Positions 3,519 through 41,591 of a stretch of 64,000 bases of DNA are shown here, piece by piece. Each line of letters begins with the position of its first letter. The stretch's first letter is position 1. A model generated the notes under the pieces. The model did no database searches. It saw nothing but the letters and a program-made list of their open reading frames with translations, and was not told the origin of the DNA. Both the position numbers and the translations under genes were made by a program. Location of the stretch: NCBI GenBank assembly GCA_021772895.1, contig JAJFLC010000012.1:310001-374000 (forward strand), read 5' to 3'. The DNA is from Mariprofundaceae bacterium. Its GTDB lineage: Bacteria > Pseudomonadota > Zetaproteobacteria > Mariprofundales > Mariprofundaceae.

Positions 3519-4478
3519 CTAAGACTGCACGTAGAGCAGAACAAGGTATGCAGAGAAACCACTGACCAACAGCGCACCCTCAATACGATTTACGCGTCCC
3601 TGTGCACGAAAACCAAAGGCCATCAAAAAGAGAAGCATGGAAAAGGCAAACATGATCGGGAAATCGCGAAGCAGTGCGTCACTGGCAAATACCTGCGGGC
3701 GAATCAAAGCTGGCATACTCAATACCGCCAAAATATTGAACATATTCGAGCCGATTACATTCCCAATCACCAGATCATGTTCGTCTTTCAACACGCCCAT
3801 GACAGCCGCCATCAGCTCCGGTAAACTGGTGCCGATCGCAACAATCGTAAGCCCGATCACCAAATCACTGATACCAAACATATGTGCAATTTCAATTGAA
3901 CCCCAGACGACAATCCGGGAGCTGATTAATAACAGCACCAGACCCAGAATAAACCAGACAATCGATTTTTTCAATGACATATCAGCATGAATAACATCGG
4001 AGAACTCATTTTCCAGTGGATCATTGCGTTCCTGCATGCCGAGCCGGGCCAACCAGCAGAGCATCAAAAGCAATCCTGTCAGAAGAACCATGCCATCCAT
4101 TCGACTTAAATCGCCATCGACCATCAGGGTCAACGCAAACAACATGATCAGAAAAAGTACCGGCATCTCTCGCCTGAGTGTGAGTGACTGCACGGAGATT
4201 GGTGAAATCATCGCGGTGATGCCCAATACCAGTCCAATATTTGCAATATTTGAGCCCAGCGCGTTGCCAATACCGAGATCACTATTACCCTCCAGGGCTG
4301 CCAAGCCAGATACCAGCATTTCGGGTAACGAGGTGCAAAGACTGACAATGGTCAGACCAATAATCATTGGAGAAACATGAAAATGACGTGCAATAGAGGC
4401 CGCGCCATCGACAAAGCGATCTGCGCCCCAGGCCAATAGAACAAAACCGATGATAACCGCCAAAATGGCCAGAAACAT
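3519..4478 (-). CDS. calcium/sodium antiporter, CaCA family (YrbG-like)
   Basis: Inner-membrane cation/Ca2+ exchanger of 319 residues and about ten hydrophobic segments. It shows the two inverted alpha-repeats of the family: SLCTSLPE with GNALGSNIANIGLVLG in the first half, and IGTSLPEL with GNVIGSNMFNILAVL in the second. A DPLENEFSD hydrophilic loop separates the halves. Acidic Glu residues in both SLPE motifs, the cation ligands, are retained. It resembles E. coli YrbG, without the lptC/kdsD neighbours found there. It runs in the same direction as trhP upstream (18-base gap), so it may be cotranscribed. Ion specificity is inferred from family only. Confidence 0.88.
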   Translation of the reverse strand: MFLAILAVIIGFVLLAWGADRFVDGAASIARHFHVSPMIIGLTIVSLCTSLPEMLVSGLAALEGNSDLGIGNALGSNIANIGLVLGITAMISPISVQSLTLRREMPVLFLIMLFALTLMVDGDLSRMDGMVLLTGLLLMLCWLARLGMQERNDPLENEFSDVIHADMSLKKSIVWFILGLVLLLISSRIVVWGSIEIAHMFGISDLVIGLTIVAIGTSLPELMAAVMGVLKDEHDLVIGNVIGSNMFNILAVLSMPALIRPQVFASDALLRDFPIMFAFSMLLFLMAFGFRAQGRVNRIEGALLVSGFSAYLVLLYVQS

Positions 4479-4496
4479 TGTCAGGCCATTTACAAA

Positions 4497-5897
4497 TCAG
4501 GCAGCCGCTGCCTGATCTACCTCGGGTGCGATATTTTTAGCCAGCAACGCAAATTTCGATGGCTCCACAGGCAAGTTGATTGTAACACAATGACCACTGC
4601 CCGGTGCGACATTCATCGTCTCACCCGTTTCCGCTTTCTGCATAGCATCGATGATGAAAGTCTGGTTACCGTTCGGACAGATGAGTTCGATGGAATCACC
4701 CACTGAGAATTTATTTTTCACAATAATTTCTGCTTTGCCACTGGCTTTGTCATACGATGATACTTCACCAACAAATCGCTGGTTAAACATCAGAGATGCA
4801 CCCTGCTCATAATTCTGATGTGCAGCGGTATCATTGCGCTGGTAGAAACCATCGGTGTAACCCCGGCTAGCCAGGCCATCGAGTTTTCGCATCAGTGACC
4901 AGTCAAACGCGCGGCCTGCCAAGGCATCATCAATCGCCTGACGATAAAGTTGCGCTGTACGTGCCACATAATAGTGAGACTTGGTACGCCCTTCGATTTT
5001 CAACGAATTCACACCGATCTTTACCAGACGCTCCACATGTTCAATGGCACGCAGATCTTTGGAGTTCATAATGTAAGTACCATGCTCATCTTCAAAGACA
5101 GGTATCTGTTCACCGGGCCGACCCTCTTCAGTCAGCATATACACCTCATCTGCCAGAGGATGCCGTGGCAGATCCCCACAGCTGGAGGTCGATTCAGAAA
5201 ATGGTGCCGGATTCAGTGACATCAGATCTTCCATTTTCAGCATATCACCACTGACATCTTCCGCACCTTTCTCCATGCCGTATTTCCAGCGGCAGGCATT
5301 GGTGCATGAACCCTGATTGGCATCACGATGATTAAAATAACCCGATAACAGACAGCGGCCGGAATAAGCCATGCACAATGCACCGTGCACAAACACTTCA
5401 ATTTCCATATCCGGGCATTCCTGCCGAATTTCTTCAACTTCATCCAGTGAAAGCTCGCGAGACAAAATCACCCGGCTCACCCCAACAGATTGCCAGAATT
5501 TCACAGCTGCATGATTCATAGTGTTTGCCTGCACAGAGAGATGAACCGGCACCTCAGGCCATTTTTCACGCACCATTGAAATCAGGCCCGGATCAGCCAT
5601 GATCAATGCATCCGGTTTCATTTCGATCACCGGCTCCATATGTTCCAGATAGCGTTTCAGCTTATTGCCATGTGGCAGAAGGTTACTGGCTACAAAAAAC
5701 TTCTTCCCCTGTGCATGCGCTTCATCAATACCGGTTTTCAAATTATCCAGCTGAAAATCATTGTTACGCACACGCAAAGAGTAACGCGGCTGACCCGCAT
5801 ACACGGCATCCGCACCATAAGCATAGGCATAACGCATATTCCGAATGGTTCCGGCAGGTGATAATAGTTCGACAGTTTGATTCATAACCTTGCTCAT
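4497..5897 (-). CDS. trhP: U32-family tRNA hydroxylation protein TrhP (YegQ)
   Basis: TrhP uses prephenate-linked, Fe-S-dependent chemistry to form 5-hydroxyuridine at U34 of certain tRNAs (E. coli YegQ). The 466-residue protein has the U32 signature region EVFVHGALCMAYSGRCLLSG followed by NQGSCTNACRWKY, giving the clustered cysteines that ligate the cluster. A C-terminal beta-barrel domain follows (VGEVSSYDKASGKAEIIVKN). It starts with a double Met (MSKVMNQ). ATG at 5897 overlaps the protease stop upstream (ATGA), so the two are translationally coupled. The annotation peptidase U32 is historical; proteolysis is not implied. Confidence 0.87.
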   Translation of the reverse strand: MSKVMNQTVELLSPAGTIRNMRYAYAYGADAVYAGQPRYSLRVRNNDFQLDNLKTGIDEAHAQGKKFFVASNLLPHGNKLKRYLEHMEPVIEMKPDALIMADPGLISMVREKWPEVPVHLSVQANTMNHAAVKFWQSVGVSRVILSRELSLDEVEEIRQECPDMEIEVFVHGALCMAYSGRCLLSGYFNHRDANQGSCTNACRWKYGMEKGAEDVSGDMLKMEDLMSLNPAPFSESTSSCGDLPRHPLADEVYMLTEEGRPGEQIPVFEDEHGTYIMNSKDLRAIEHVERLVKIGVNSLKIEGRTKSHYYVARTAQLYRQAIDDALAGRAFDWSLMRKLDGLASRGYTDGFYQRNDTAAHQNYEQGASLMFNQRFVGEVSSYDKASGKAEIIVKNKFSVGDSIELICPNGNQTFIIDAMQKAETGETMNVAPGSGHCVTINLPVEPSKFALLAKNIAPEVDQAAAA

Positions 5898-17777: not shown

Positions 17778-18167
17778 ATGACCCATAATAATATTCTCAA
17801 AAAAATATCCATCGCCAACAATCTGAAACATTACGAAATCAAAACCTGTTTCGAACTTGGCGGGCTTGAGCTAAGCAGTAGCCAGATCAAGGCATTCATG
17901 GCCGGATCAAAAAACAAAAACTATGAAGCCTTGAACGATGAAACGTTTGAAGCTTTTCTTAACGGTTTCATCACCTATTCCCGTGGTTCAGTTGATGAAC
18001 CCAACCTGCTGCCACGTACGGTAGAAAACTACATCATCGGGCTTGTTGAATCAGACAACATTGACGCCATCGAAGAGATCAGATGCCTCATTGATGATGC
18101 CAAAGATGCCCTTGAAGAAAACAGCGAAACAACAAACGCAGAAGCGAATATAAAAGCTGATGACTAA
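17778..18167 (+). CDS. DUF1456 protein, YehS-like
   Basis: 129 residues with two copies of the DUF1456 helical repeat. The first is NNILKKISIANNLKHYEIKT...FELGGLELSSSQIKAFM with FEAFLNGFITYSRG after it. The second half is more diverged. E. coli YehS has the same architecture and no established function. Typical copies read GGLEVSREQV. The acidic C-terminal tail (EENSETTNAEANIKADD) is not conserved. Starts 32 bases after the membrane hydrolase. Confidence 0.75.
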   Translation: MTHNNILKKISIANNLKHYEIKTCFELGGLELSSSQIKAFMAGSKNKNYEALNDETFEAFLNGFITYSRGSVDEPNLLPRTVENYIIGLVESDNIDAIEEIRCLIDDAKDALEENSETTNAEANIKADD

Positions 18168-18195
18168 CTGTTTCGTTTATATTTAAAGACCAGTT

Positions 18196-18714
18196 TTGGA
18201 CATCACAGCGGCAAATAAAATTTCCATCGTTGGAAATTCCGGTGCAGGAAAATCCACACTGTCCAAAAAACTTGGTATATCACTTGGAATAGAAGTCTTT
18301 TCAATCGACAAAATCTATTGGTTGCCCGAATGGCAGCGAAGAGATCAACCATCCTTTCAAAAGCTTCATGATGAATGGCTCAACGCAGAGACATGGATTA
18401 TTGATGGCGTTGGATACTGGAAAGAAATGAAAACACGCCTTTCTGAATCTGATATGGTCATTTTTCTGGATACACATTTCTCCTTATGCAAAAAAAGAGC
18501 AGCGACAAGGATAAGAGAAGAAAAACTGGCTCCAAATCCTCACATCACAGCAGGGTGCCTGTATGGTGATATGGAAAAGATGCAAATAAAAACCATAGAA
18601 ACATTTGATCGTGAACTCAAACCAAAATTAGCACATTATTTGGCTGGGCTTAACCCGGAAAAAGTTAAAATCATAAAAAACTTTGAAGCATTGAATATAA
18701 AGAGCGCGATATAA
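18196..18714 (+). CDS. P-loop NTPase, adenylate-kinase-like (topology-modulation/FlaR type)
   Basis: 172 residues. Walker A GNSGAGKSTLSKKLG lies at residues 13-27, then SIDKIYWLPEWQ and WIIDGVGYW, typical of the small kinase-like NTPases annotated as DNA topology modulation proteins. A CKKRAATRIREEK lid-like segment follows. The only usable start is TTG 18196 with a poor ribosome site. Real function unknown; a nucleoside- or small-molecule-kinase role is inferred. Its stop codon lies inside an ATATAAC box that is mirrored by GTTATAA 13 bases later, as in the cassette-like block at 31-35 kb. Confidence 0.7.
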   Translation: MDITAANKISIVGNSGAGKSTLSKKLGISLGIEVFSIDKIYWLPEWQRRDQPSFQKLHDEWLNAETWIIDGVGYWKEMKTRLSESDMVIFLDTHFSLCKKRAATRIREEKLAPNPHITAGCLYGDMEKMQIKTIETFDRELKPKLAHYLAGLNPEKVKIIKNFEALNIKSAI

Positions 18715-18735
18715 CAACTAAGCCCAACGTTATAA
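18709..18735 (+). repeat. attC-like inverted box pair between the P-loop gene and the GNAT gene
   Basis: ATATAAC (18709-18715) and GTTATAA (18729-18735) are near-perfect complements, 13 bases apart. The left box contains the stop codon of the upstream gene, and the next start is 18 bases downstream. The spacing is shorter than normal integron attC sites (about 55-140 bases), so it may be only a chance hairpin or a collapsed site. Confidence 0.25.
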
Positions 18736-18752
18736 GTTATAAGGAAAAAAAT

Positions 18753-19178
18753 ATGCCAAAACAAGCCACCACAGATATCGAAATTGAAAACTGCTTTGAT
18801 GTTATGTCCGAGCTGCGTACGCAACTAAAAAAAGATACGTTTTTAAGTACCGTTCGGCAGATGGAAACAGAAGGTTATAAACTCGCGTTTATTGAAGATG
18901 GAGGAAAAGTTGTTGCGGTTGCGGGCTACCGTATTTACAGCAATTTATTCATGGGTAAACATCTTTACGTAGATGATCTTGTCACTTCAGAAAACGCACG
19001 TTCAAAGGGGTATGGCGAACAGCTGATCCAATGGTTGCGCAATGTGGCAAAAGAAGAGAGTTGCAACTTCTATCACCTCGATTCCGGCACCCATCGAGGT
19101 GCCGCTCATAAATTCTACTTCAAACAAGGTTTCACGATTGCCAGTTATCACTTTAGCGAACAACTCAATGATAAATAA
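18753..19178 (+). CDS. GNAT-family N-acetyltransferase
   Basis: 141 residues with the acetyl-CoA fold. A central strand (LYVDDLVTSENARSKGYGEQLIQWL) contains the motif A pyrophosphate loop R-S-K-G-Y-G at about residues 87-92. YHLDSGTHRGAAHKFYFKQGF follows, typical of the C-terminal GNAT half. Acceptor unknown. The start has AAGGAAAAAA upstream. No regulatory clue is visible beyond the inverted boxes just upstream. Confidence 0.82.
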   Translation: MPKQATTDIEIENCFDVMSELRTQLKKDTFLSTVRQMETEGYKLAFIEDGGKVVAVAGYRIYSNLFMGKHLYVDDLVTSENARSKGYGEQLIQWLRNVAKEESCNFYHLDSGTHRGAAHKFYFKQGFTIASYHFSEQLNDK

Positions 19179-29427: not shown

Positions 29428-30897
29428 ATGCGCACACTTTATGCCCGGCTTGCAGTCACACTCGCCCTCACCCTTGGCCTTACGGGTCTCATGTATGCAC
29501 TGTTTGTTTTTGTCGCAGTTCAGAAAAATACCCAGCACACAGATCAGGCGCTTAACCGGAATCTGGCAAAAACGCTGGTTGCTGAACGCAACCTTGTCCG
29601 TGAAAATGAATTGGATAAACAGGCTCTGAAAGAAACATTTCAGATGTATATGGATGTAAACCCCAGCATTGAAGTTTATCTGATTGATCTGTCCGGGAAG
29701 ATATTATCTTTCTCCGCCGACCCGGGACGCGTTCAACGCACACATGTTGACCTTGAGCCGATTCACGCTTTTTTGAAAGAAAATGCCATGTTTCCGATTC
29801 TGGGCGATGACCCGCGCGCACCGGACAGCCATAAAGTTTTTTCTGTCACCCCCATTCCTTCTGCCGCCAATGCCAGCGGCTATCTTTATGTCATTCTCAG
29901 GGGTGAGCAATATGATAAAGTAGAGCAATTTGCGCGTGACAAAAACCTGTTGTATTTAAGTGGGTGGGTCGTTGGTATCGCATTAATTATCAGTTTGCTG
30001 ATTGGTTTGCTGGTATTTTACCCGTTAACACGCCGTTTGCGCCATTTATCAACACAAATTGACACATTTCGAAAAAGTGATTTTAAAACACCTCCAAGCA
30101 TCACACTTTCGACAGCAGCAGGCGATGAATTAAATCAGTTAGAAAACAACGTTCATCTGATGGCAAAACAAATTGCTCAACAATTTGAGCAACTCTCTGA
30201 ACAGAATGTGCAGCGTCGCGATCTTTTTGCCAGTCTCTCACATGATCTGCGCACACCCCTGGCAACCCTGCACGGATATCTGGAGACCATGCAGATCAAA
30301 GCGTCCGAGCTGACGCCGGAAACGCATGAAACCTATCTGCTGCGTGCGCTCAAATTCAGCAATCGTTTGAAGCTGTTGGTGGATGAACTGTTTGAAATGG
30401 CCAAGCTTGATACCTTTCAAACTGCACCCCATATCGAACCCTTTTCATTGCCCGAACTGGTACAGGATATTTTGCAGCAGTTTGAAACCACAGCTCAACA
30501 GGCAAACATTCAGCTACAGATGCAGGGTGACACCGAACTGCGATTTGTAGATGGCGACATTGGCCTGATTCAGCGCCTGTTTGAAAACCTTGTCTCCAAT
30601 GCTCTGCGGCACGTCAACAGTGGCGGCAACATTGTCATCTCCCTGCGTGCCCTGAATGGTCAGATTGAAGTGCAGGTATCCGATACTGGCTGTGGCATCG
30701 AAGCCAAAGAACTCGATAACATTTTTGACCCGCTCTATCAGGTCAACAACAGTCACCGTGGTGGCGACCACTCAGGCCTTGGTCTCGCCATCGTTCACCG
30801 CATTCTGGAGCTGCACGGCAGCAGCATCGCCGTAACAAGTGAGGTGGATCAGGGAACCACCTTTATCTTTGCACTGTCGACGGTATCCGACAGCTAA
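29428..30897 (+). CDS. two-component sensor histidine kinase
   Basis: 489 residues. Transmembrane helix 1 covers about residues 8-30, a periplasmic sensor domain 31-175, helix 2 about 176-196. HAMP and coiled coil follow (QIAQQFEQLSEQNVQRRD). HisKA has the H-box ASLSHDLRTPLATLHGY. HATPase_c has NLVSNALRHV, VSDTGCGIEA, a G1 box and HSGLGLAIVHRILE. Cognate partner of the regulator 2 bases upstream. The sensor domain lacks motifs I recognise, so the stimulus is unknown. Confidence 0.92.
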   Translation: MRTLYARLAVTLALTLGLTGLMYALFVFVAVQKNTQHTDQALNRNLAKTLVAERNLVRENELDKQALKETFQMYMDVNPSIEVYLIDLSGKILSFSADPGRVQRTHVDLEPIHAFLKENAMFPILGDDPRAPDSHKVFSVTPIPSAANASGYLYVILRGEQYDKVEQFARDKNLLYLSGWVVGIALIISLLIGLLVFYPLTRRLRHLSTQIDTFRKSDFKTPPSITLSTAAGDELNQLENNVHLMAKQIAQQFEQLSEQNVQRRDLFASLSHDLRTPLATLHGYLETMQIKASELTPETHETYLLRALKFSNRLKLLVDELFEMAKLDTFQTAPHIEPFSLPELVQDILQQFETTAQQANIQLQMQGDTELRFVDGDIGLIQRLFENLVSNALRHVNSGGNIVISLRALNGQIEVQVSDTGCGIEAKELDNIFDPLYQVNNSHRGGDHSGLGLAIVHRILELHGSSIAVTSEVDQGTTFIFALSTVSDS

Positions 30898-31082
30898 AAG
30901 AGGCCAGCACTTCTTTCGGATATAGAACGCATCCGTACAGACTTTCTATTTTATCTCCACAGGTTTACAGTCAACATTGAAGGGCTGGTGGAAAATACAA
31001 CATATTCTGTATTCATCCCTTAATATGCAATATGGAGGAAAAATGTCCGTACATTATAAAAAAACACGTGGAATTTTCCCCC

Positions 31083-31112
31083 CTGTATCAACACTGTTAT
31101 GTTTAAAGATAG
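31083..31112 (+). repeat. imperfect repeat, copy 1 (cassette-boundary-like, ends in GTTATGT)
   Basis: CTGTATCAACACTGTTATGT (31083-31102) matches 19 of 20 bases at 32711-32730, and looser similarity extends to about 40 bases on both sides. It lies just ahead of the yjbR-like gene and carries a GTTATGT box, which is the exact complement of ACATAAC found after that gene (31500-31506). It fits the right half of an integron attC-type site, but a left half is not seen next to it. Confidence 0.45.
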
Positions 31113-31136
31113 TACCAACAGTACCAGTGAGCCATA

Positions 31137-31493
31137 GTGAAAAAAGATAAACTTGGGATGTACCTATCAAAGCTTAAAGGCTCCGAAGGAAGTTTTCCAT
31201 TTGGGCCTGAAGCATTGGTGTTCAAGGTGATGAGCAAAATGTTCGCTCTCGTATCACAGAAAGAGGATGTTACGAGGTTAACATTAAAATGTTCACCAGC
31301 TGATGCAAAGGTTTTGATAGACCTACATGAATCAGTTGTTCCAGGCTACTACATGAACAAAAAGCATTGGGTGACGATTCTACTAAATGGGGAGTTACCA
31401 GAAAAAATGATAACCGACTTAGCTAAGCAATCATACGAGCTAGTAGTTAAAAAGTTAACTAAAGCAGACAGGAATAAACTTGAGCAGCAATAG
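31137..31493 (+). CDS. MmcQ/YjbR family protein (DUF419)
   Basis: 118 residues; MmcQ/YjbR proteins have a CyaY-like fold with unknown function. The conserved SFPFGPEALVFKVMSKMFAL opens the domain, followed by LTLKCSPADAKVLIDLH and VVPGYYMNKKHWVTILLNG. GTG start at 31137. A 35-codon frame with a better ribosome site (31043-31150) overlaps it. First gene of an AT-rich, same-strand run of small unrelated genes. ACATAAC lies 6 bases after its stop. Confidence 0.8.
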   Translation: MKKDKLGMYLSKLKGSEGSFPFGPEALVFKVMSKMFALVSQKEDVTRLTLKCSPADAKVLIDLHESVVPGYYMNKKHWVTILLNGELPEKMITDLAKQSYELVVKKLTKADRNKLEQQ

Positions 31494-31499
31494 CAAAAA

Positions 31500-31550
31500 A
31501 CATAACCAGAGAATGCACGCGAACAGCCATAAGCGTCGCGACTTTTTAAT
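31500..31550 (+). repeat. possible degenerate attC-like site after the yjbR gene
   Basis: Starts with ACATAAC (31500-31506), complement of the GTTATGT box that precedes the same gene. A CGCGA / TCGCG hairpin lies at about 31520-31541. No GTTRRRY right box could be found at the far end, so the site is incomplete or absent. Confidence 0.25.
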
Positions 31551-31564
31551 AGAGGTAATTAATA

Positions 31565-32146
31565 ATGCCAGCATTAGAGCCATTATTAATCGAGATTAGA
31601 AAATGCACTATTTGCGAAAAGCATTTACCTCTTGGTGCGAACCCTGTTTTACAGGCTAATCGAAAAGCCAAAATCTTAATTGCAGGGCAAGCACCAGGGA
31701 AAAAAGTTCATGAATCAGGCGTTCCCTTTGATGATGCTAGCGGGGATCGTTTGCGAGAGTGGATGGGTATTTCAAGTAATATATTCTACGATCCTACTAT
31801 AATCGCAATAATACCGATGGGCTTCTGTTATCCCGGCACAGGAAAATCTGGAGACCTTCCTCCACGGCCTGAATGTGAATCTGCATGGCGTCGTCAACTA
31901 CTTGAGCAACTTCCAAACATTAATATGAGTTTAGTATTAGGCAAATACGCACAGACATACCACTTTGGAAAAACGAGTTCTTCTCTAACTGAGTTAGTAA
32001 AGTCATGGGAAGATTATTGGCCAGATGTTGTTCCTCTACCACACCCTAGCCCTAGGAATAATATTTGGCTTAGCAAAAACACTTGGTTTGAGAAAGAAGT
32101 ACTTCCACGACTACGAGCGAGAATATCGGATATTATTGGACTATGA
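31565..32146 (+). CDS. uracil-DNA glycosylase superfamily protein
   Basis: 193 residues. N-terminal CTICEKHLPLGANPV, then motif A GQAPGKKVHESGVPF with DDASGDRLREWM, as in the UDG-superfamily proteins of family-4/5 appearance. The C-terminal motif reads PLPHPSPRNNIW (family HPSPxN). The Cys pair near the N-terminus resembles part of the Fe-S ligand set, but only two cysteines are obvious there, so cluster binding is doubtful. Probable DNA repair or DNA-modification role. ATG 31565 follows AGAGGTAATTAATA. Small, AT-rich, in the cassette-like block. Confidence 0.78.
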   Translation: MPALEPLLIEIRKCTICEKHLPLGANPVLQANRKAKILIAGQAPGKKVHESGVPFDDASGDRLREWMGISSNIFYDPTIIAIIPMGFCYPGTGKSGDLPPRPECESAWRRQLLEQLPNINMSLVLGKYAQTYHFGKTSSSLTELVKSWEDYWPDVVPLPHPSPRNNIWLSKNTWFEKEVLPRLRARISDIIGL

Positions 32147-32151
32147 GCAGG

Positions 32152-32237
32152 TTAACAAGGCAAATTAACATGGACAAAAATATGCGTTATGATAAAGCTG
32201 CAACACTTATTTTTCCCAGTTATTTGCGACGTTAGGA
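32152..32237 (+). repeat. attC-like recombination site after the UDG-family gene
   Basis: Best candidate of the block. The left box TTAAC AAG starts 6 bases after the upstream stop. GCAAATTAACATGG (32160-32173) pairs with CCCAGTTATTTGC (32215-32227) with one bulge. The right box GTTAGGA (32231-32237) completes an 86-base folded site, in the normal attC size range. The extreme left box (GGTTAAC) only partly complements GTTAGGA. Confidence 0.5.
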
Positions 32238-32277
32238 CGCTACAAACTGACAATGTCTCAGAATTAGGAGTTGTCAT

Positions 32278-32690
32278 ATGGAAATATCCCTTGCATCAAA
32301 AATTAAGGAAGCGAATACAACGCTTATCGTCAATGGAAATTTAGATCGGATTGGTAATTTCTTCACGCAAGACTATGCCGTGCATCTAACAGACCGCGTT
32401 GTGAAAGGGGGGCATGACATCGTTCAAATACACTTGGTGCACTTCACCAAAGTTTTCCTGACATTCAAATGGATATAGATATACTTTTGGAAGGTGAGGG
32501 TCGGATAGCATGGCAAAGGACGCTTCGGGCAACACACAAAGATAAATTCAAAGGTTTCCCTGCCAGCGATCTTAAAATTGTTTGGCGCGATATGGTTACG
32601 AGTCAGTTTCGTGATGGGCTCATCGCTGAGGAATGGGTGATAAGTGACCTTGCAGAGCAATTACTACTTTCCAGAAAGCGTAAAGCGTAA
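32278..32690 (+). pseudogene. SnoaL-like ester cyclase family gene, frameshifted
   Basis: Two overlapping frames make one SnoaL-like (NTF2-fold) protein. Frame 1 (32278-32478) gives MEISLASKIKEAN, NLDRIGNFFTQDYAVH and GGHDIVQIH. Frame 2 (from about 32455 to 32690) continues FPDIQMDIDILLEGEGR, AWQRTLRATHKDKF and SQFRDGLIAEEWVISDLAEQ. The break falls at the T-run in AAAGTTTTCCTGAC: one extra T would restore KVFPDIQMD. Either a real frameshift in a decaying gene or a sequencing error. The product would be about 137 residues, normal for the family. AGGAG precedes the ATG. Confidence 0.7.
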
Positions 32691-32710
32691 AGCGTAAATG
32701 GCCTTTTTTT

Positions 32711-32740
32711 CTGTATCAACATTGTTATGTGTTAAGAGAG
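32711..32740 (+). repeat. imperfect repeat, copy 2 (cassette-boundary-like)
   Basis: CTGTATCAACATTGTTATGT (32711-32730), then GTTAAGAGAG. It is 19/20 identical to 31083-31102, and like it stands just ahead of a small gene (ogt). In both places the same frame reads VSTLLC. A triple AAAGCGT heptamer repeat (about 32675-32697) precedes it. Confidence 0.45.
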
Positions 32741-32748
32741 GTATTCAG

Positions 32749-33246
32749 ATGAGTCAAATAAATATTCAGTATCACAAAACAAAAATAGGTGAGCTGATAC
32801 TTGGAACTTTTGATGAAAAACTTTGTATTTTGGATTTCAGATATAGAAAAATGAGGCCAACCGTTGATAATAGAATTAAGAGAGGGCTCAAGGCAGATTT
32901 TGTAGAACAAAATGATGAAACTAATGACGAAGCAAAAAGGCAGGTTGATGAGTATCTAAACGAAGGAAGAAAAAAATTTGATATTCCATTATTAATGGTG
33001 GGAACTAACTTTCAAAAAGATGTTTGGAATGGGTTAATGAAAGTGCCATATGGATCAACATCCACTTACCTGAAGCTAGCAAAAAGTATCAATAATGAGA
33101 AGGCTGTTCGAGCAGTGGCTAGTGCAAATGGAGCGAATTCTATAGGCCTAATAGTCCCATGCCATCGCATAATTGGTAGCAACGGAGAGTTGGTCGGGTA
33201 TGGTGGTGGGTTGCCTGTAAAAAAACGACTGCTAAGGTTAGAATAG
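32749..33246 (+). CDS. ogt: methylated-DNA-[protein]-cysteine S-methyltransferase
   Basis: Suicide repair protein that takes the methyl group from O6-methylguanine onto its own Cys. 165 residues with the active site IVPCHRIIGSNGELVGYGGG and helix-turn-helix region FQKDVWNGLMKVPYGSTSTY (family FQxxVWxALxxIPxGxT). The start at 32749 has GAGG 8 bases upstream; the frame open to 32698 begins in the repeat sequence. Atypically Lys/Asn-rich for this genome, consistent with transfer. Single-domain, without an Ada-type regulatory part. Confidence 0.9.
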   Translation: MSQINIQYHKTKIGELILGTFDEKLCILDFRYRKMRPTVDNRIKRGLKADFVEQNDETNDEAKRQVDEYLNEGRKKFDIPLLMVGTNFQKDVWNGLMKVPYGSTSTYLKLAKSINNEKAVRAVASANGANSIGLIVPCHRIIGSNGELVGYGGGLPVKKRLLRLE

Positions 33247-33317
33247 GTAGGTCAGTAATGAATAGTGTGGTGAATTTAGGAAAAAGGGGACGTTACCCTT
33301 TTGGACCAGAAGGTTTT

Positions 33318-34085
33318 ATGAGTTCAAACAAAAAAGAACGGATATGCGAATTGCTGAAAGGAATAGAAACGGGTGACCCGACAGTGGTATCTGTAGTCAA
33401 CGAAGCTAAGTATATCCAACACAATCCACAAACTCATGAGGGCAGCGAAGGGTTAGCCAGTCTATTCAAGCGCCTGTCTAAAACATCTCCTCAAGTGAAT
33501 ATTGTGCGTGTTTTCGAAGATGGTGATTTTGTCTTCGCTCATACGGAGTACGACTTTACGACTCGGAATATAGGCTTCGAAATATTCCGCTTTGAAGATG
33601 ATCAAGCGGTTGAGCATTGGGATAATATCCAGAAAAGAGAAGGGCCTAACAGCTCTGGTCATACAATGGTCGATGGATCAACAGAAGTTACAGATCATAA
33701 AACAGGAGAAAACAACCGTATAGTGATTCAATCATTTATTGAAGATGTGCTCATTCACGGTGATCTCGAAAAATTGGATGATTACATAGATCAAGAACAC
33801 TATACGGAGCATAGCCCGCATCTTGGTGATGATCTGGTCGGATTGCGCACTATTCTATCGAAACCCGCTACCGAGGGTTCAATTCCAGTCAGTTATGAAA
33901 AATGTCATCGTCTATTGGCTGAGGGCAATTTTGTTCTATCCGTTTGCGAAGGGTACACCAACCAGACCCCATCCTCCTTCTTTGATCTCTATCGCTTACG
34001 AGTCGGAAAAATTGTTGAGCACTGGGACACGACAGAAGCGATTCCACCTCGCAGCGAATGGAAAAACAACAACGGAAAATTTTAA
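33318..34085 (+). CDS. tandem SnoaL-like (NTF2-fold) protein
   Basis: 255 residues made of two SnoaL-like domains (about 1-120 and 130-255), each ending with an EHWD motif (QAVEHWDNIQ and KIVEHWDTTE). YIQHNPQTHEG and YTEHSPHLGDDL are the matching substrate-side segments. Such proteins are seen as predicted SnoaL-like aldol condensation or hydrolase proteins; reaction unknown. ATG 33318 has AAGG nearby. The frame opens at 33258, but its first 20 residues (including RGRYPFGPEGF) look like a leftover of a YjbR-type N-terminus. A TAAC box lies 8 bases after the stop. Confidence 0.75.
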   Translation: MSSNKKERICELLKGIETGDPTVVSVVNEAKYIQHNPQTHEGSEGLASLFKRLSKTSPQVNIVRVFEDGDFVFAHTEYDFTTRNIGFEIFRFEDDQAVEHWDNIQKREGPNSSGHTMVDGSTEVTDHKTGENNRIVIQSFIEDVLIHGDLEKLDDYIDQEHYTEHSPHLGDDLVGLRTILSKPATEGSIPVSYEKCHRLLAEGNFVLSVCEGYTNQTPSSFFDLYRLRVGKIVEHWDTTEAIPPRSEWKNNNGKF

Positions 34086-34092
34086 ATCAACG

Positions 34093-34132
34093 CTAACGTG
34101 GTAAAAAAAGAGAAAGGGATTGGCCGTTAGAC
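34093..34132 (+). repeat. attC-like box pair between the SnoaL and GNAT genes
   Basis: CTAACG (34093-34098) and CGTTAG (34125-34130) are exact complements, and the right box GTTAGAC (34126-34132) fits the GTTRRRY rule perfectly. It starts 8 bases after the SnoaL stop and ends 6 bases before the GNAT start. Length 40 is short for an attC and inner arms are weak. Confidence 0.4.
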
Positions 34133-34138
34133 TTTAAT

Positions 34139-34594
34139 ATGATTGAATATATAAACTTGTCTCAGTGTAATTCCGACGCATTGATTTCTATTCTAAATTC
34201 CGAAGATGTTCGGAAGCATCTTATGCCGCATGACCCATTCGATCATGTGTTGTTAGCTAATTGGATCAAGCAAAAAAACGCTTGTGACGCACTTCCGGGC
34301 TGTCGTGTCCGGGGCATACGAATTGATCAGCAACTGGCCGGTTGGTGTGGGATTCAAGATGACGAGCTTGGTTATGAAATAGGTATTATTTTAGCCAAAC
34401 CTTTTTGGGGCTACGGCAAGCTTATTTTTGAAACAATGCGGGTTTGGGCTAAAGAATTCGGGCATAGTGAACTTATCATCCATCTTCATGAGTCCCGGCC
34501 AAATTACAAATTCCTATCAAAATTGTCCCATAACAAAATCACTAAATCCGTGATACTTGGTCATAAGTTTAATTCATACCATGTACAAATCTAA
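34139..34594 (+). CDS. GNAT-family N-acetyltransferase (RimJ/RimL-like)
   Basis: 151 residues. VRKHLMPHDPFDHVLLANWIKQ, then RGIRIDQQLAGWCGIQ and LGYEIGIILAKPFWGYG match RimJ/RimL-type GNAT folds, with the acetyl-CoA loop at FWGYGKLIFE (usually QRKGYG/WGKGYA). Acceptor unknown. No ribosome site of note. The stop TAA is embedded in an ATCTAAC box, the arrangement seen at the 3' ends of integron cassettes. Confidence 0.75.
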   Translation: MIEYINLSQCNSDALISILNSEDVRKHLMPHDPFDHVLLANWIKQKNACDALPGCRVRGIRIDQQLAGWCGIQDDELGYEIGIILAKPFWGYGKLIFETMRVWAKEFGHSELIIHLHESRPNYKFLSKLSHNKITKSVILGHKFNSYHVQI

Positions 34595-34640
34595 CAAGGC
34601 GCTTCATCCTAGCTATCCATGGCGCATATTTTTTAGGAAA
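34589..34640 (+). repeat. attC left-half-like sequence after the GNAT gene
   Basis: ATCTAACAAGGCGC (34589-34602): ATCTAAC satisfies the RYYYAAC left-box rule exactly, and AAGGCGC is a common second box in integron attC sites. A GCGC recurs at about 34622, but no GTTRRRY right box is found, so only half of a site seems to remain. Confidence 0.4.
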
Positions 34641-34674: not shown

Positions 34675-34992
34675 ATGACTCAATATGTTCTTGTTTATCT
34701 GGGCGGCAATCAGCCATCCAGTCCAGAGGAAGGTCAGAAACATTTCGCAAAATATAAAGCGTGGTTATCTTCATTGGGCGATGCAGCAGTAAGCCCTGCC
34801 AACCCGCTTAAAGGTACAAGCACAGTCAACGCCGATGGAACGGTTTCCGCCGGAGGCACAACATCCATGTCTGGCTTTACCATCATTGAAGCTGACTCTC
34901 TGGACGCAGCAATCGCTATCGCAAAAGCGTGCCCTTTTCTTGACATCGGCGGGTCACTTGAGGTGTCTGAGCTGATGCAGATGCCTTTTTAA
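34675..34992 (+). CDS. YCII-related domain protein
   Basis: 105 residues. The alpha-beta dimer-forming YCII fold starts MTQYVLVYLGG and has FAKYKAWLSSLGDAAV and SGFTIIEADSLDAAIAIAKACPFLDIGGSLEVSEL, the typical ACPFL..GGxLEV ending. Relatives are annotated YciI-like or DGPF-type proteins; function mostly unknown, some act near ECF sigma factors. GGGAG lies 7 bases ahead of ATG. More G+C-rich than the preceding genes, so it may be outside the AT-rich cassette-like run. Confidence 0.78.
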   Translation: MTQYVLVYLGGNQPSSPEEGQKHFAKYKAWLSSLGDAAVSPANPLKGTSTVNADGTVSAGGTTSMSGFTIIEADSLDAAIAIAKACPFLDIGGSLEVSELMQMPF

Positions 34993-35662: not shown

Positions 35663-36853
35663 ATGAATAATGTAATGCAGACTTACGCACGCTTTCCTTT
35701 GACCATCGTGAATGGCGAAGGCGCGTATGTATTTGATAATGATGGGAACAAATATCTGGATTTTGTTGCGGGTATTGCGGTGAATACATTGGGCCATGGA
35801 CATCCGGCTTTGGTGCGTGCGGTGAGTGAGCAGGCAGCAAGTATGTTGCATTGTTCAAACCTTTATCATATTCCTAAACAGATTGAATTGGCGGCTAAAC
35901 TGACGGGGCTTTCAGGTCTGGATCGGGCCTTTTTCTGTAACTCGGGTGCGGAAGCCAATGAGGCTGCGATTAAAATTGCGCGGAAATATTTCCATGATGC
36001 GGGTTCGCATCGTCGGACTGTGATTACAGCAACCCATTCATTCCATGGCCGGCTTCTGACTACGCTGACCGCGACCGGACAGGATAAGGTTAAGATTGGA
36101 TTTGATCCTTTGCCACCGGGTTTTCAACATGTGCCTTTGAATGATTTGGGCGCGTTGACGGATGCGGTTGATGAAAACACGGCCGCTGTATTGCTTGAAC
36201 CTTTGCAGGGTGAAGGTGGTGTGAACATCGCTGATACTGAGTATTTGCGTGGTGTGCGGAAGCTGTGTGATGAACATGGCATATTGCTGATGCTGGATGA
36301 AGTGCAGACAGGCATTGGGCGAACCGGGAAAATGTTTGCGTTTGAACATGCGGGAATCAAGCCGGACGTGCTTACTCTGGCTAAAGGCCTTGGTGGCGGT
36401 GTGCCGATTGGTGCGATGCTGGCATCTGAAAAGGTGGCGGCTTCTTTTGGTCCGGGAAGTCATGGCTCTACATTTGGTGGTAACCCGCTTTCATGTGCGG
36501 CAGCACTTGCTGTGTTGGATACGATTGAAAAAGAGGATCTGTTGAACAACGTGGCCGAGCAGAGTGCACGGATTAAAATCAGACTTGAGGTCATGGTTGA
36601 GAAATTTTCGATAGCCAAAGCGGTGCGTGGCAGTGGTTTGTTGTTGGGGCTTGCCTGTTCTGAAGCTGTTGCACCCATCATTGAAGGTTGTCGATCCAAA
36701 GGATTATTGTTGCTTGTTGCAGGGCCAAATGTGCTCAGGTTTCTTCCTGCTTTGAATATTCAGGCGGATGAAGTGGATCAGGCGATGAGGATTCTTGAAG
36801 AGGTGTTTGCTGTCATTGAGGCGTCCGGGGCGGGAAGTGAGGTGACAAAGTGA
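35663..36853 (+). CDS. argD: acetylornithine aminotransferase ArgD
   Basis: PLP-dependent class III transaminase; makes N-acetylornithine from N-acetylglutamate semialdehyde, and may also serve lysine synthesis. 396 residues with [18 protein letters not shown] (PLP phosphate loop), [29 protein letters not shown] (PLP-N1 Asp) and the PLP Lys in [14 protein letters not shown] at about residue 241. The start at 35663 gives [13 protein letters not shown], as in relatives. The stop overlaps the argF GTG start by 4 bases. Confidence 0.95.
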
Positions 36854-37761
36854 GGCATTTTTTAACATTGCTGGATGTCACAGAAGATGAGGCTCATGCA
36901 CTCTTAAAACGTGCGGCTGAACTTAAATCCATGCAGCAGCGCGGTGAAGCCCACCCGACCCTTGCAGGCAAAACACTGGGCATGATCTTTGACAAGGCCA
37001 GCACCCGAACCCGTATTTCATTTGAAGTGGGTATGTATCAGTTGGGTGGGCATGCCCTGTTTTTACACTCAGGCACAACACAGCTGGGCCGGGGTGAACC
37101 TGTTGAAGATTCAGCACGTGTTTTGTCTCGTATGGTTGATGCGGTAATGATTCGCACACATGCACATGAGATCGTTCAGCGATTTACGCAATATTCCACG
37201 GTGCCGGTGATCAATGCTCTGACCGATCTCACACATCCATGCCAAATTTTGGCTGATATTTTCACGTTTGAAGAGCATCGCGGTGATATCAAGGGCAAAA
37301 CCGTGGCATGGATTGGTGATGGCAATAATATGACTCACTCATGGATCAATGGGGCGGTGACCTTTGGTTATAAGCTGAATATTGCTTGTCCGGCTGACTA
37401 TTCACCGGATGAGACATTGTTACAGGCCGCTCGGGATATGGGCGCGGATGTGAGCATCAGTTCAGACCCTTTGCTGGCTGCAAAAGATGCAGATCTGGTG
37501 ACAACCGATGTATGGGCCTCCATGGGGCAGGAAGAAGAACAGGCAGAGCGGGAAAAAGCATTTATGGGTTATCAGGTTGATGAGCGTGTGATGGCTTATG
37601 CGAAACCGGATGCGCTGTTTATGCACTGTTTGCCTGCACACCGGGGTGAAGAAGTGGCTGCCAGTGTGATTGATGGGCCTCAATCTGTGGTTTGGGATGA
37701 GGCAGAAAATCGATTGCATGTGCAAAAAGCATTGCTTGAATTCCTGATATTACAGACGTGA
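36850..37761 (+). CDS. argF: ornithine carbamoyltransferase ArgF
   Basis: Forms citrulline from ornithine and carbamoyl phosphate. 303 residues with the carbamoyl-phosphate loop [32 protein letters not shown]-type HPCQ block (here [11 protein letters not shown]), and [11 protein letters not shown], which contributes the ornithine-site Cys. [11 protein letters not shown] segment confirms the anabolic family. GTG start overlaps argD, so the two are coupled. argG follows after a 97-base gap. Confidence 0.96.
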
Positions 37762-37858
37762 AAGCGATACGATGTCATTGCGTTGTAACGAGCATGGCTT
37801 AAACTGCCCCGCGTTTAGTTTATCAAGACAACATATCAAAAACTAGTTGAGGTCATGC

Positions 37859-39082
37859 ATGGCTCATTCGAATATAAATAAAGTTGTATTGGCCTATTCA
37901 GGTGGACTGGATACCTCCATTATTCTGAAGTGGTTGCAGGATACCTATGCATGTGAGGTGGTTACCTTTACAGCGGATATCGGGCAGGGCGAAGAGGTTG
38001 AAGAGGCGCGTGTTAAGGCAGAAGCCTGTGGTGCTTCGGCTATCTATATTGAAGATCTCACCGAAGATTTTGTACGTGATTATGTGTTTCCAATGTTTCG
38101 TGCAAATGCCATTTACGAAGGCGAATATCTGTTGGGCACATCCATTGCCCGACCCTTGATCTCTAAACGTATGATTGAAATCGCAGAAGTGGAAGGTGCG
38201 GATGCAGTTTCTCATGGCGCAACAGGTAAGGGGAACGATCAGGTTCGTTTCGAATTGGGTTTTTATGGCCTGAAACCGGATGTGAAAGTGATCGCACCAT
38301 GGCGTGAATGGGACCTGAATTCACGTGAGCAGATGCTGGCGTATGCCGATCAGCATGGTATTCCTGTTGAACGCAAACGTGAAAATTCAAAATCGCCTTA
38401 TTCGATGGATGCCAACCTGCTGCATATCTCTTATGAAGGTTATGACTTGGAAGATCCATGGACAACACCGGGCGAAGATATGTGGCGCTGGAGTGTTTCA
38501 CCTGAAGCTGCACCGGATCAGGCAGAATATATCGAACTGACCTATCAGGGCGGTGATATTATAGCGATCAATGATGCGGTGATGACACCGGCTGCTGTGT
38601 TGCGGGAACTCAATCGTCTGGGTGGTAAACATGGTATTGGCCGAATTGATATTGTCGAAAATCGTTATGTGGGTATGAAGTCACGTGGTTGTTATGAGAC
38701 ACCGGGTGGCACCATTATGTTGAAGGCGCACCGGGCGATTGAATCGCTGACCCTTGATCGTGAAGCGGCGCATTTAAAAGACGAGTTGATGCCACGTTAT
38801 GCCAAGCTGGTGTACAATGGTTACTGGTTTGCACCTGAATGTAAGATGATGCAGAGCATGATTGATGCCTCACAGGCGACGGTCAATGGTGTGGTTCGTT
38901 TGAAGCTTTACAAAGGCAATGTGATGGTGCTTGGGCGTAAATCGGATCAATCACTGTTTGATGAACGCCTTTGCACATTTGAAGATGATGAAGGGGCATA
39001 CAATCAACAGGATGCCGAAGGTTTTATTCGATTAAACGCTTTGCGTCTACGTTTGTCTGCGATTGCTGGTAAAGGAAACTGA
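37859..39082 (+). CDS. argG: argininosuccinate synthase ArgG
   Basis: ATP-dependent condensation of citrulline and aspartate. 407 residues; the N-terminal PP-loop [16 protein letters not shown] and later blocks [33 protein letters not shown] are all present. The start at 37859 (MAHSNINK) is preferred to a TTG at 37847. argH is not in the window, so the pathway's last step is elsewhere. The stop TGA overlaps by one base with the ATG of the cytochrome gene. Confidence 0.96.
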
Positions 39083-39678: not shown

Positions 39679-40005
39679 GTGCAGTCAGCGCTTGTTTTTA
39701 AGGCGCTATCTGATCCGCTTCGTTTGCGGATCATCTATTTGCTGACATGCAGGCAGGAACTCTGTGTATGTCATTTTACGGATGTGCTGGCTCTGCCGCA
39801 GAGCACGGTTTCAAGGCATTTATCCCAGCTCAGGCATTTGGGGCTGGTTGAAACACGCCGTGATGGAAAATGGGTTCATTATCGACTTTCTCAGAATGAT
39901 CACTCGGTGCTAAAAGAGCTTATGCCTACGATTGCAGGCTTAGCAAGTTTGGAGGATCAATTGGCGACGGATGCTAAAAAATTACCTTTGTCTGTCTGTG
40001 ATTGA
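39679..40005 (+). CDS. arsR: arsenical resistance repressor ArsR
   Basis: SmtB/ArsR-family winged-helix repressor, 108 residues. As(III)-binding motif ELCVCHF (two Cys, E. coli type ELCVCDL), recognition helix LPQSTVSRHLSQLRHLGLV, then ETRRDGKWVHYRL wing. GTG start. It should dissociate from the operator on arsenite or antimonite binding and derepress acr3-arsC downstream. The gap of 125 bases to acr3 contains a palindrome fit for its operator. Confidence 0.92.
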   Translation: MQSALVFKALSDPLRLRIIYLLTCRQELCVCHFTDVLALPQSTVSRHLSQLRHLGLVETRRDGKWVHYRLSQNDHSVLKELMPTIAGLASLEDQLATDAKKLPLSVCD

Positions 40006-40091
40006 ATCAATCACGACAATGATTCACGATAGAATAAATCATGACGGAATAAATCGACTGTAGCCGACTTTATATTTACATATCCGCATTA

Positions 40092-40106
40092 GCGAATATG
40101 ATTCGC
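40092..40106. promoter_or_regulatory. candidate ArsR operator ahead of acr3
   Basis: Perfect GCGAAT-ATG-ATTCGC palindrome, 24 bases ahead of the acr3 ATG. ArsR-family sites are 12-2-12-type imperfect AT-rich palindromes of this character. Placement in the arsR-acr3 gap supports it; the flanks are only weakly symmetric. Confidence 0.45.
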
Positions 40107-40129
40107 CCCATTCATATGGGAGATCACGC

Positions 40130-41179
40130 ATGTCATCCAATACTCAACCGATGGGTCTGTTTGCCCGCTATCTAACTATCTGGGTTTTTCTGTGCATTAT
40201 TGCAGGTATAACGTTGGGCGCATTTTTTCCAACGTTGTTCCACACATTGGGAGGCACGGAAATCGCCCATATTAACCTGCCAGTGGCGATACTTGTCTGG
40301 GCAATGATTCTTCCGATGCTGCTCAAGATTGATTACGGCTCACTGCATGAAGTGTGGGATCATCGGCGTGGGGTCGGGGTGACTCTGGCGATTAACTGGC
40401 TGGTGAAACCTTTTTCTATGGCACTGCTTGGATGGTTGTTTCTACAATATCTTTTTGCACCGTTTCTCGAAGCAGATAAAATTTCCGAATACATTGCCGG
40501 TCTCATTCTTTTGGCTGCGGCACCTTGTACGGCGATGGTGTTTGTCTGGTCGCGACTTGTGGACGGGCACCCTCAGTTTACGCTTTCACAGGTTGCACTC
40601 AATGATGTGATTATGGTTGTGGCTTTTGCACCCATTGTGGGTCTGTTGTTGGGAATTGCTTCGATCCATATACCCTGGAACACGCTGTTGCTTTCGGTGT
40701 TGCTGTATATCGTGATTCCTGTTGTGCTGGCATACCTCGGACGTAAAATGTTATTGGTAAAAGACAGACTGGGTGATGTGTTACATATCATGGATCCGAT
40801 CTCAATGGGTGCATTATTGGTGACGGTTGTATTGTTGTTCGGATTTCAGGGTGAGCAGATACTTGCTCAACCTTTGGTGATTTTATTGCTTTCTATCCCC
40901 ATTATGATTCAAGTCTATTTTAATGCCATGCTGGCCTACTGGATGAATAAAACATTGAAGGTGGTACATAGTGTCGCAGGCCCATCGGCGTTGATCGGGG
41001 CATCGAATTTTTTCGAATTGGCGGTGGCGACTGCGATTGCATTGTTTGGATTTGAATCAGGTGCAGCATTGGCCACGGTTGTAGGCGTGTTGGTTGAGGT
41101 GCCTGTCATGTTAACAGTGGTTTCGATCGTGAATCGAAGTAAAATTTGGTACGAACGTGGTATAAAAGAGGTTGGGTAA
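40130..41179 (+). CDS. acr3: arsenite efflux transporter Acr3
   Basis: Ten-helix antiporter of the BASS superfamily that expels As(OH)3. 349 residues. It shows LPMLLKIDYGSLHEV, the essential Cys in AAAPCTAMVFVWSRL, and ALNDVIMVVAFAPIVGLLLG, plus FELAVATAIALFGFESGAALATVVGVLVEVPVML in helices 9-10. GGGAG lies 7-8 bases before the ATG. arsC starts 1 base after the stop. Confidence 0.94.
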   Translation: MSSNTQPMGLFARYLTIWVFLCIIAGITLGAFFPTLFHTLGGTEIAHINLPVAILVWAMILPMLLKIDYGSLHEVWDHRRGVGVTLAINWLVKPFSMALLGWLFLQYLFAPFLEADKISEYIAGLILLAAAPCTAMVFVWSRLVDGHPQFTLSQVALNDVIMVVAFAPIVGLLLGIASIHIPWNTLLLSVLLYIVIPVVLAYLGRKMLLVKDRLGDVLHIMDPISMGALLVTVVLLFGFQGEQILAQPLVILLLSIPIMIQVYFNAMLAYWMNKTLKVVHSVAGPSALIGASNFFELAVATAIALFGFESGAALATVVGVLVEVPVMLTVVSIVNRSKIWYERGIKEVG

Positions 41180-41180
41180 T

Positions 41181-41591
41181 ATGAAACAGAAGGTTTTATT
41201 TCTTTGCACAGGTAACGCATGTCGCTCACAGATGGCTGAGGGCTGGTTAAAACATTTGGGTGGAGATCGTTTTGAAGTCTATTCCGCAGGCATTGTTGCG
41301 CATGGTAAAAACCCGCGTGCGATTGCCGTGATGAAAGAGGCAGGCGTGGATATCAGTGGGCAGGAGTCTGAGCAGTTAGATATGGCAATGCTCAATGAAC
41401 TTGATCTACTGGTAACGGTGTGTGGTCATGCAGATGAGAGCTGCCCTGCTGTTCCCGTCAGCTGTGAAAAACAGCATTGGCCTTTTGACGACCCGGCAAA
41501 AGCAACGGGTATGGAAGAAGAAATCATGGCAGAATTTTGCCGTGTGCGTGACCAGATCCGCAAACGAATCGAGCGCTTTATTAACAAATAA
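41181..41591 (+). CDS. arsC: arsenate reductase ArsC, LMW-phosphatase type
   Basis: Reduces arsenate to arsenite for export by Acr3. 136 residues with the PTP-like loop CTGNACRSQMAEGWL (nucleophile Cys10) and the redox pair in TVCGHADESCP (about residues 80 and 88), the thioredoxin-coupled triad of the B. subtilis/S. aureus class. The start at 41181 (MKQKVLF) is preferred to TTG 41172, which overlaps acr3. It differs from the tyrosine phosphatase at 1510 by having these extra cysteines and lacking DPYY. Confidence 0.92.
   Translation: MKQKVLFLCTGNACRSQMAEGWLKHLGGDRFEVYSAGIVAHGKNPRAIAVMKEAGVDISGQESEQLDMAMLNELDLLVTVCGHADESCPAVPVSCEKQHWPFDDPAKATGMEEEIMAEFCRVRDQIRKRIERFINK

Follow-up and report, generated by a model that had tools for sequence, protein, structure and literature searches.

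Gene content and recombination sites of the array

The window analysed here is a 64-kb stretch of contig JAJFLC010000012.1 (positions 310,001–374,000) from a Mariprofundaceae bacterium of the class Zetaproteobacteria (assembly GCA_021772895.1). It contains six small, AT-rich genes on the same strand, which a preliminary description made from the sequence alone had read as an eroded array of integron gene cassettes with attC-like sites and no integrase gene (intI). From left to right, the locus comprises attI, YjbR, uracil-DNA glycosylase (UDG), attC, a SnoaL pseudogene, a partial attI, Ogt, double SnoaL, a collapsed attC, GNAT and half an attC (Table 1). Pfam searches agreed with the families that had been proposed, weakly so for GNAT, but revealed a frameshift in the first SnoaL gene. 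The GC content of the array is 0.406, compared with 0.466 ± 0.029 in 62 control genes. TAAC boxes at 31503, 32153, 34094 and 34592 and GTTA boxes at 32231 and 34126 lie where they had been placed. A TAAC box occurs near the stop codon of four of the six array genes versus 7 of 62 controls (one-sided Fisher p = 0.005, a post hoc value because the distance window was set after the claim was known). The boundary between Ogt and double SnoaL has no site, and an alternative ATG of Ogt at 32698 would join its open reading frame (ORF) to the partial attI.

Since Rfam gave no match at the array, a dedicated covariance model (R1) was built from 15 attC sites of arrays beside or near the intI genes of relatives, with the window excluded; all attC scores given here derive from this model, not from that of IntegronFinder. 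An earlier structural scanner needed a relaxed R-box threshold to see the site behind the UDG gene, and hence served only to collect training sites. The R and L stems of the 15 training sites covary (0.471 versus 0.142 when shuffled, and at most 0.089 in slid versions). R1 returned a single match in the window, the 88-nt site behind the UDG gene, supporting its proposed identity as attC. With filters off, nothing else between 30900 and 35600 exceeded 8.6 bits: the boxes of the remaining attC-like sites are real, but the sites are too eroded to score. The same applies to the supposed textbook left half after GNAT, where a 5' half is present, by eye nearly identical to that of an attC in a relative (L091), but the right half is missing. 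A 106-bp DNA search for relatives of the attC gave mostly short matches and was set aside.

An attI site at the left end of the array came to light through a 30-nt repeat (31083 and 32711). The 18-nt core of the repeat, GTATCAACAYTGTTATGT, is found at two places in the host genome, both of them in the array. Few relatives have it; in those it stands at a constant spacing (121–127 nt) from where the intI profile match ends, on the side of the cassettes. An nhmmer profile made from the attI of only four intact intI matched 31005–31099, and the site scored 52.0 bits with model R2 and 44.4 bits with model R3, the latter built from intI-adjacent attI of the class, again excluding the window, among which at least three attI types align. 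The window attI is homologous over ~100 bp to the attI beside intact intI of relatives, and this homology ends at the G|TTATGT crossover. The array start given in the preliminary description, 31083, falls inside this attI, which had been overlooked together with the partial copy. The latter is 87% identical over 30 nt to 31083–31112 and is the second-best attI match in the 64 kb, with a weak profile score (32696–32727, E = 0.6/0.12). The full attI contains a Shine-Dalgarno-like motif and the beginning of a short ORF that extends into the YjbR start; GGAG and ATG are retained in all three aligned attI types.

Table 1. Features of the array and its flanks (positions in the window).
Feature	Position	Strand	Evidence or remarks
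Sensor histidine kinase (HK), left chromosomal flank	29428–30897	+	Pfam; in MsrAB-RR-HK cluster known from relatives
Orphan attI, type A	31004–31102	+	Crossover in GTTATGT 31096–31102
Shine-Dalgarno-like GGAGG and short ORF	31034–31150	+	GGAGG 31034–31038; ORF 31043–31150; read from sequence
Cassette gene 1, YjbR family, 118 aa	31137–31493	+	PF04237, E = 9.6e-27
Eroded attC, R'' box ACATAAC only	31499–31506	+	Read from sequence; no R1 score
Cassette gene 2, UDG superfamily, 193 aa	31565–32146	+	PF03167, E = 2e-24
Intact attC, 88 nt	32150–32237	+	R'' TAAC, L'' CAAAT(T)AAC, L' GTTATTTG, R' GTTAGGA; R1 46.5 bits, E = 3.6e-9
Cassette gene 3, SnoaL-like frameshifted pseudogene	32278–32690	+	Pfam; two frames, 32278–32478 and 32469–32690
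Partial attI copy (3' third), between SnoaL and Ogt	32696–32730	+	GTTATGT 32724–32730
Cassette gene 4, O6-methylguanine-DNA methyltransferase (Ogt)	32749–33246	+	PF01035, E = 1.5e-29
Cassette gene 5, double SnoaL-like (SnoaL_2), 275 aa	33258–34085	+	PF12680, E = 2.8e-12
Collapsed attC, CTAACG ... CGTTAG, without L boxes, 40-nt remnant (34094/34126 pair)	34092–34132	+	Sequence; no R1 score
Cassette gene 6, GNAT-like acetyltransferase, 151 aa	34139–34594	+	PF13302, E = 2.2e-5 (weak)
attC 5' half (CTAACAAGGCGCTTCA), right half lost, right edge of array	34589–34607	+	By eye; no R1 score
YciI-domain gene, first past the array	34675–34992	+	PF03795, E = 2.3e-7
argD-argF-argG, right chromosomal flank	35663–39082	+	Gene order kept in relatives without cassettes upstream

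Absence of an integrase gene and nature of the locus

A TIGR02249 search of the host genome found no intI, only Xer-like matches, the best at 70.8 bits against a cut-off of 265. True integrons do exist in the class: 26 of 78 genomes carry intI above the curated cut-off, 34 genes in total. Measured against a complete integron, the window locus has an attI and attC cassettes, one of them with an intact attC, and lacks intI beside attI. The six array genes were not found in relatives beside either argDFG or the MsrAB-RR-HK cluster, and the downstream side of HK in 18 loci of relatives bears neither attI nor cassette. A tblastn search of the window genes against a set of loci from relatives, including integron arrays, gave two weak Ogt matches and otherwise no relatives of the cassettes.

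We conclude with high confidence that 31004–34607 is a decaying, integrase-less chromosomal integron whose cassettes were recombined in at attI. The earlier reading as an eroded cassette array without integrase is upheld by the attC model match, the attI at the left end, the lack of intI in the genome and the absence of the genes from the flanks of relatives. The preliminary description had itself named the lack of any attC model match, together with conserved synteny, as the outcome that would speak against it, and neither was observed. The attI would have served as the platform at the left, into which an integron integrase inserted cassettes by recombining attI (G|TTATGT) with the attC of each cassette; the IntI responsible may have been encoded in cis and then lost, or encoded elsewhere and active in trans. 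The attI may have been kept for the translation start that it carries (GGAG, ATG), as an expression platform for the first cassette, and would probably also carry a promoter. Decay is evident in the SnoaL frameshift, the half attC and the collapsed attC. Given that no intI was found in the host, the sites in the window are expected to be inactive at present, barring the arrival of an integrase.

Several observations weigh against this conclusion. The host assembly is a draft (24 contigs, 98.5%), and intI could lie in a gap. A single attC is intact, so YjbR, SnoaL, Ogt and GNAT are taken as cassettes from where they lie. A pattern search of 30850–31300 gave no sigma-70-like promoter. Furthermore, the UDG gene is no cassette specialist, most of its relatives not lying beside attC: attC matches (four in all) were found in 2 of 80 loci, one of which, from Nitrotoga, has three. 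With attC in so few loci, the UDG relatives were dropped as main evidence of cassette origin. The closest relative of the UDG gene (73%) lies at 4001–4591 of that Candidatus Nitrotoga region (L170), which shows three weak same-strand attC matches. One could suppose that these are ordinary small genes gained horizontally, beside which TAAC and GTTA boxes occur by chance, as most of the boxes have no R1 score and the UDG relatives are mostly not cassettes. We consider this very improbable, given that two independent models match the locus, for attC (E = 3.6e-9) and for attI (E = 7.4e-14), and that the same-strand order of attI and attC recurs at six other host loci.

Elsewhere in the window, arsR, acr3-like and arsC-like genes lie at 39679–41591, 3' of argDFG, and arsR/acr3 adjoin argDFG in several relatives too. 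A low-GC trio at 17778–19178 encodes a 129-aa protein, a P-loop kinase and a GNAT protein; the stop codon of the kinase gene lies inside ATATAACAACTAAGCCCAACGTTATAA, which resembles a collapsed attC.

Orphan attI sites in the host genome and in Zetaproteobacteria

In the 2.45-Mb host genome, R3 detected 14 attI with the threshold at E ≤ 1e-4 and 15 when it was set to 0.01, more than in any other genome searched from the class; 12 control genomes of the same phylum but other families had none. Across 78 genomes of Zetaproteobacteria, 205 attI (table summed by hand) were found in 58, as against 34 intI. The array in the window is a relic; this excess of attI without an integrase (orphan attI) is the notable result, and it suggests that docking sites and recombinase are commonly apart in the class. 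Besides the window site, the host has thirteen orphan attI, at C7:90609, C4:237749, C4:238995, C7:1602, C7:113374, C7:131170, C1:109697, C15:132442, C7:318738, C4:72110, C10:31836, C10:91240 and C5:36950 (contig:position). Of the five host attC, four follow a same-strand attI within ~1.2 kb; when weaker matches are counted, seven host attI loci have attC downstream, every one of them on the same strand. The attI at C1:109697 (L318) is followed by as many as three attC.

The window locus could be the product of decay in place alone, in which a complete integron once stood there, intI was deleted, and the array froze and eroded; the many orphan attI would then be relics of this kind. We give this account an even chance of being right. 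It agrees with the intI start or leader still recognisable at four host loci (L154, L317, L318 and L281) and with a truncated intI alongside an attI of another genome (G087:C35). An active integrase is known from experiment to be costly and soon lost (PMC3510236), and its repeated inactivation is documented in Xanthomonas (PMC12444791). The other host attI, however, have no recognisable intI sequence. Among 55 orphan copies, 16 retain 14–373 nt of the intI side, but 39 retain nothing past a TTCC edge, including three (L385, L368 and L335) that are ~95% identical to intI-linked attI. The cassette changes described below, in which intI was already gone, also speak against decay in place alone.

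Two further loci are recorded here. L155 has two attI (3750–3847 and 4996–5070) 1.2 kb apart, which share a 207-bp block (96% identical) with non-intI sequence upstream; the second provides the start codon of the next gene. At position 6461 of L161 (G069:C3), an orphan attI adjoins a dihydroxyacid dehydratase (ilvD-like) gene, as the Xanthomonas integron does.

Copying of attI and cassette change in relatives

One relative (G019) has an intact intI with tandem attI (L089, 2209–2306 and 3014–3111) in the order attI-ORF-attI, the second copy standing after the first cassette. This copy spans 160 bp, is 99.4% identical, includes the intI start and ends at G|TTA; attI can thus duplicate as a block. 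In a second relative (G059:C74), attI and one cassette form a ~1.2-kb insert whose ends are a 38-bp imperfect repeat, and the site is empty in seven congeners. A leader-plus-attI unit of ~165 bp recurs at two loci within one genome.

Such cases are what would be expected if attI, with or without a cassette, had come to the window locus without an intI of its own and had then been loaded by an integrase in trans. The window attI itself begins at the common TTCC-like edge with no recognisable intI remnant. Nevertheless, this is an old copy with a left flank that may have changed past recognition, no empty site was found for the window locus, and no transposition mechanism was identified. Arrival as a unit is possible, if on balance rather doubtful.

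Two orthologous pairs of orphan attI differ in their cassettes. G058:C132 and G059:C74 have the upstream gene, an intI-less spacer and attI in common (93% identity); past G|TTA, G058:C132 is unrelated to G059:C74, with a different gene and an intact attC. Likewise, the homology of G059:C31 and G055:C84 runs through an upstream gene and attI (682 bp, 94.4% identical) and stops at G|TTA, with none beyond. The search for intI gave no match above the cut-off in G055, G058 or G059. Because the flank common to both members of a pair lacks intI, the change of cassettes would postdate the loss of intI and would need an integrase in trans. The evidence points to cassette exchange at orphan attI in these two pairs of relatives, not at the window locus, and the genomes involved are drafts, 88–90% complete and two of them with 6–8% contamination, which tempers it. 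The cassette array at the G058 orphan attI (L407) is flanked by a direct repeat, 474 bp long and 91% identical, of the end of the upstream gene (3–766 and 2463–2936); the matching insert in G059 is the one with the 38-bp imperfect repeat.

Because these pairs changed cassettes at attI that already lacked intI, the orphan attI of the class seem to be docking sites separate from any integrase. On a wider reading, the integron of Zetaproteobacteria would be split: attI would form a dispersed repeat family, with up to 14–15 copies in a genome, which spreads or is maintained independently of intI and swaps cassettes through a trans-acting integrase, transient or encoded elsewhere. The window locus would be a worn example of it, whose array contains another, partial attI. 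We regard this wider reading as plausible, though slightly short of an even prospect.

Comparison with known systems and implications

CALIN, which are cassettes with attC sites and no intI read as degraded integrons (PMC9024848), and inactivated sedentary integrons (PMC9024848, PMC12444791) are already known, as is the replacement of attC by a partial attI in class 1 and 2 integrons (PMC12901181). The CALIN-like label of the preliminary description holds in the loose sense of at least one attC without intI, but not strictly. By default IntegronFinder 2 asks for at least two attC (PMC9024848), whereas a single one in the 64 kb scores with R1; nor does the label cover the full attI retained here, which IntegronFinder seeks only for class 1. 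The sedentary ilvD integron of Xanthomonas with inactivated intI (PMC12444791) likewise lost its integrase and retains an eroding array. That system comprises one locus, in contrast to 14–15 orphan attI in the present host, and in Xanthomonas a shared intI lesion usually goes with a shared array (PMC12444791), whereas two orthologous orphan attI pairs here differ in cassettes. The partial attI after SnoaL may be likened, as far as its sequence goes, to the delta-attI-type cassette, in which a partial attI takes the place of attC after the cassette gene (PMC12901181); the window copy belongs to a chromosomal environmental integron and another attI family, with ~35 nt left. Cassettes inserted at attG sites, a case cited in PMC12901181 and PMC12444791, are likewise scattered and without local intI, but lie at an unrelated GTT site, whereas most lone cassettes here follow a recognisable attI.

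To our knowledge, a class with multicopy orphan attI outnumbering its integrases is new. Within the literature covered by our search, the term 'orphan attI', like several variants of it, appeared in no integron paper, which is weak evidence of novelty, and no paper on integrons in Mariprofundus was found. Integron surveys search for intI and attC; attI is left out by default because it is poorly described outside class 1 (PMC9024848). For Zetaproteobacteria, a class-wide attI model proved workable and gave about six attI per integrase. If orphan attI are used in trans, intI alone could not gauge the capacity of a genome for cassette capture and expression, and lone cassettes could be the cargo of orphan attI. 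The finding also makes it testable whether 'dead' integrons still dock cassettes once an integrase arrives.

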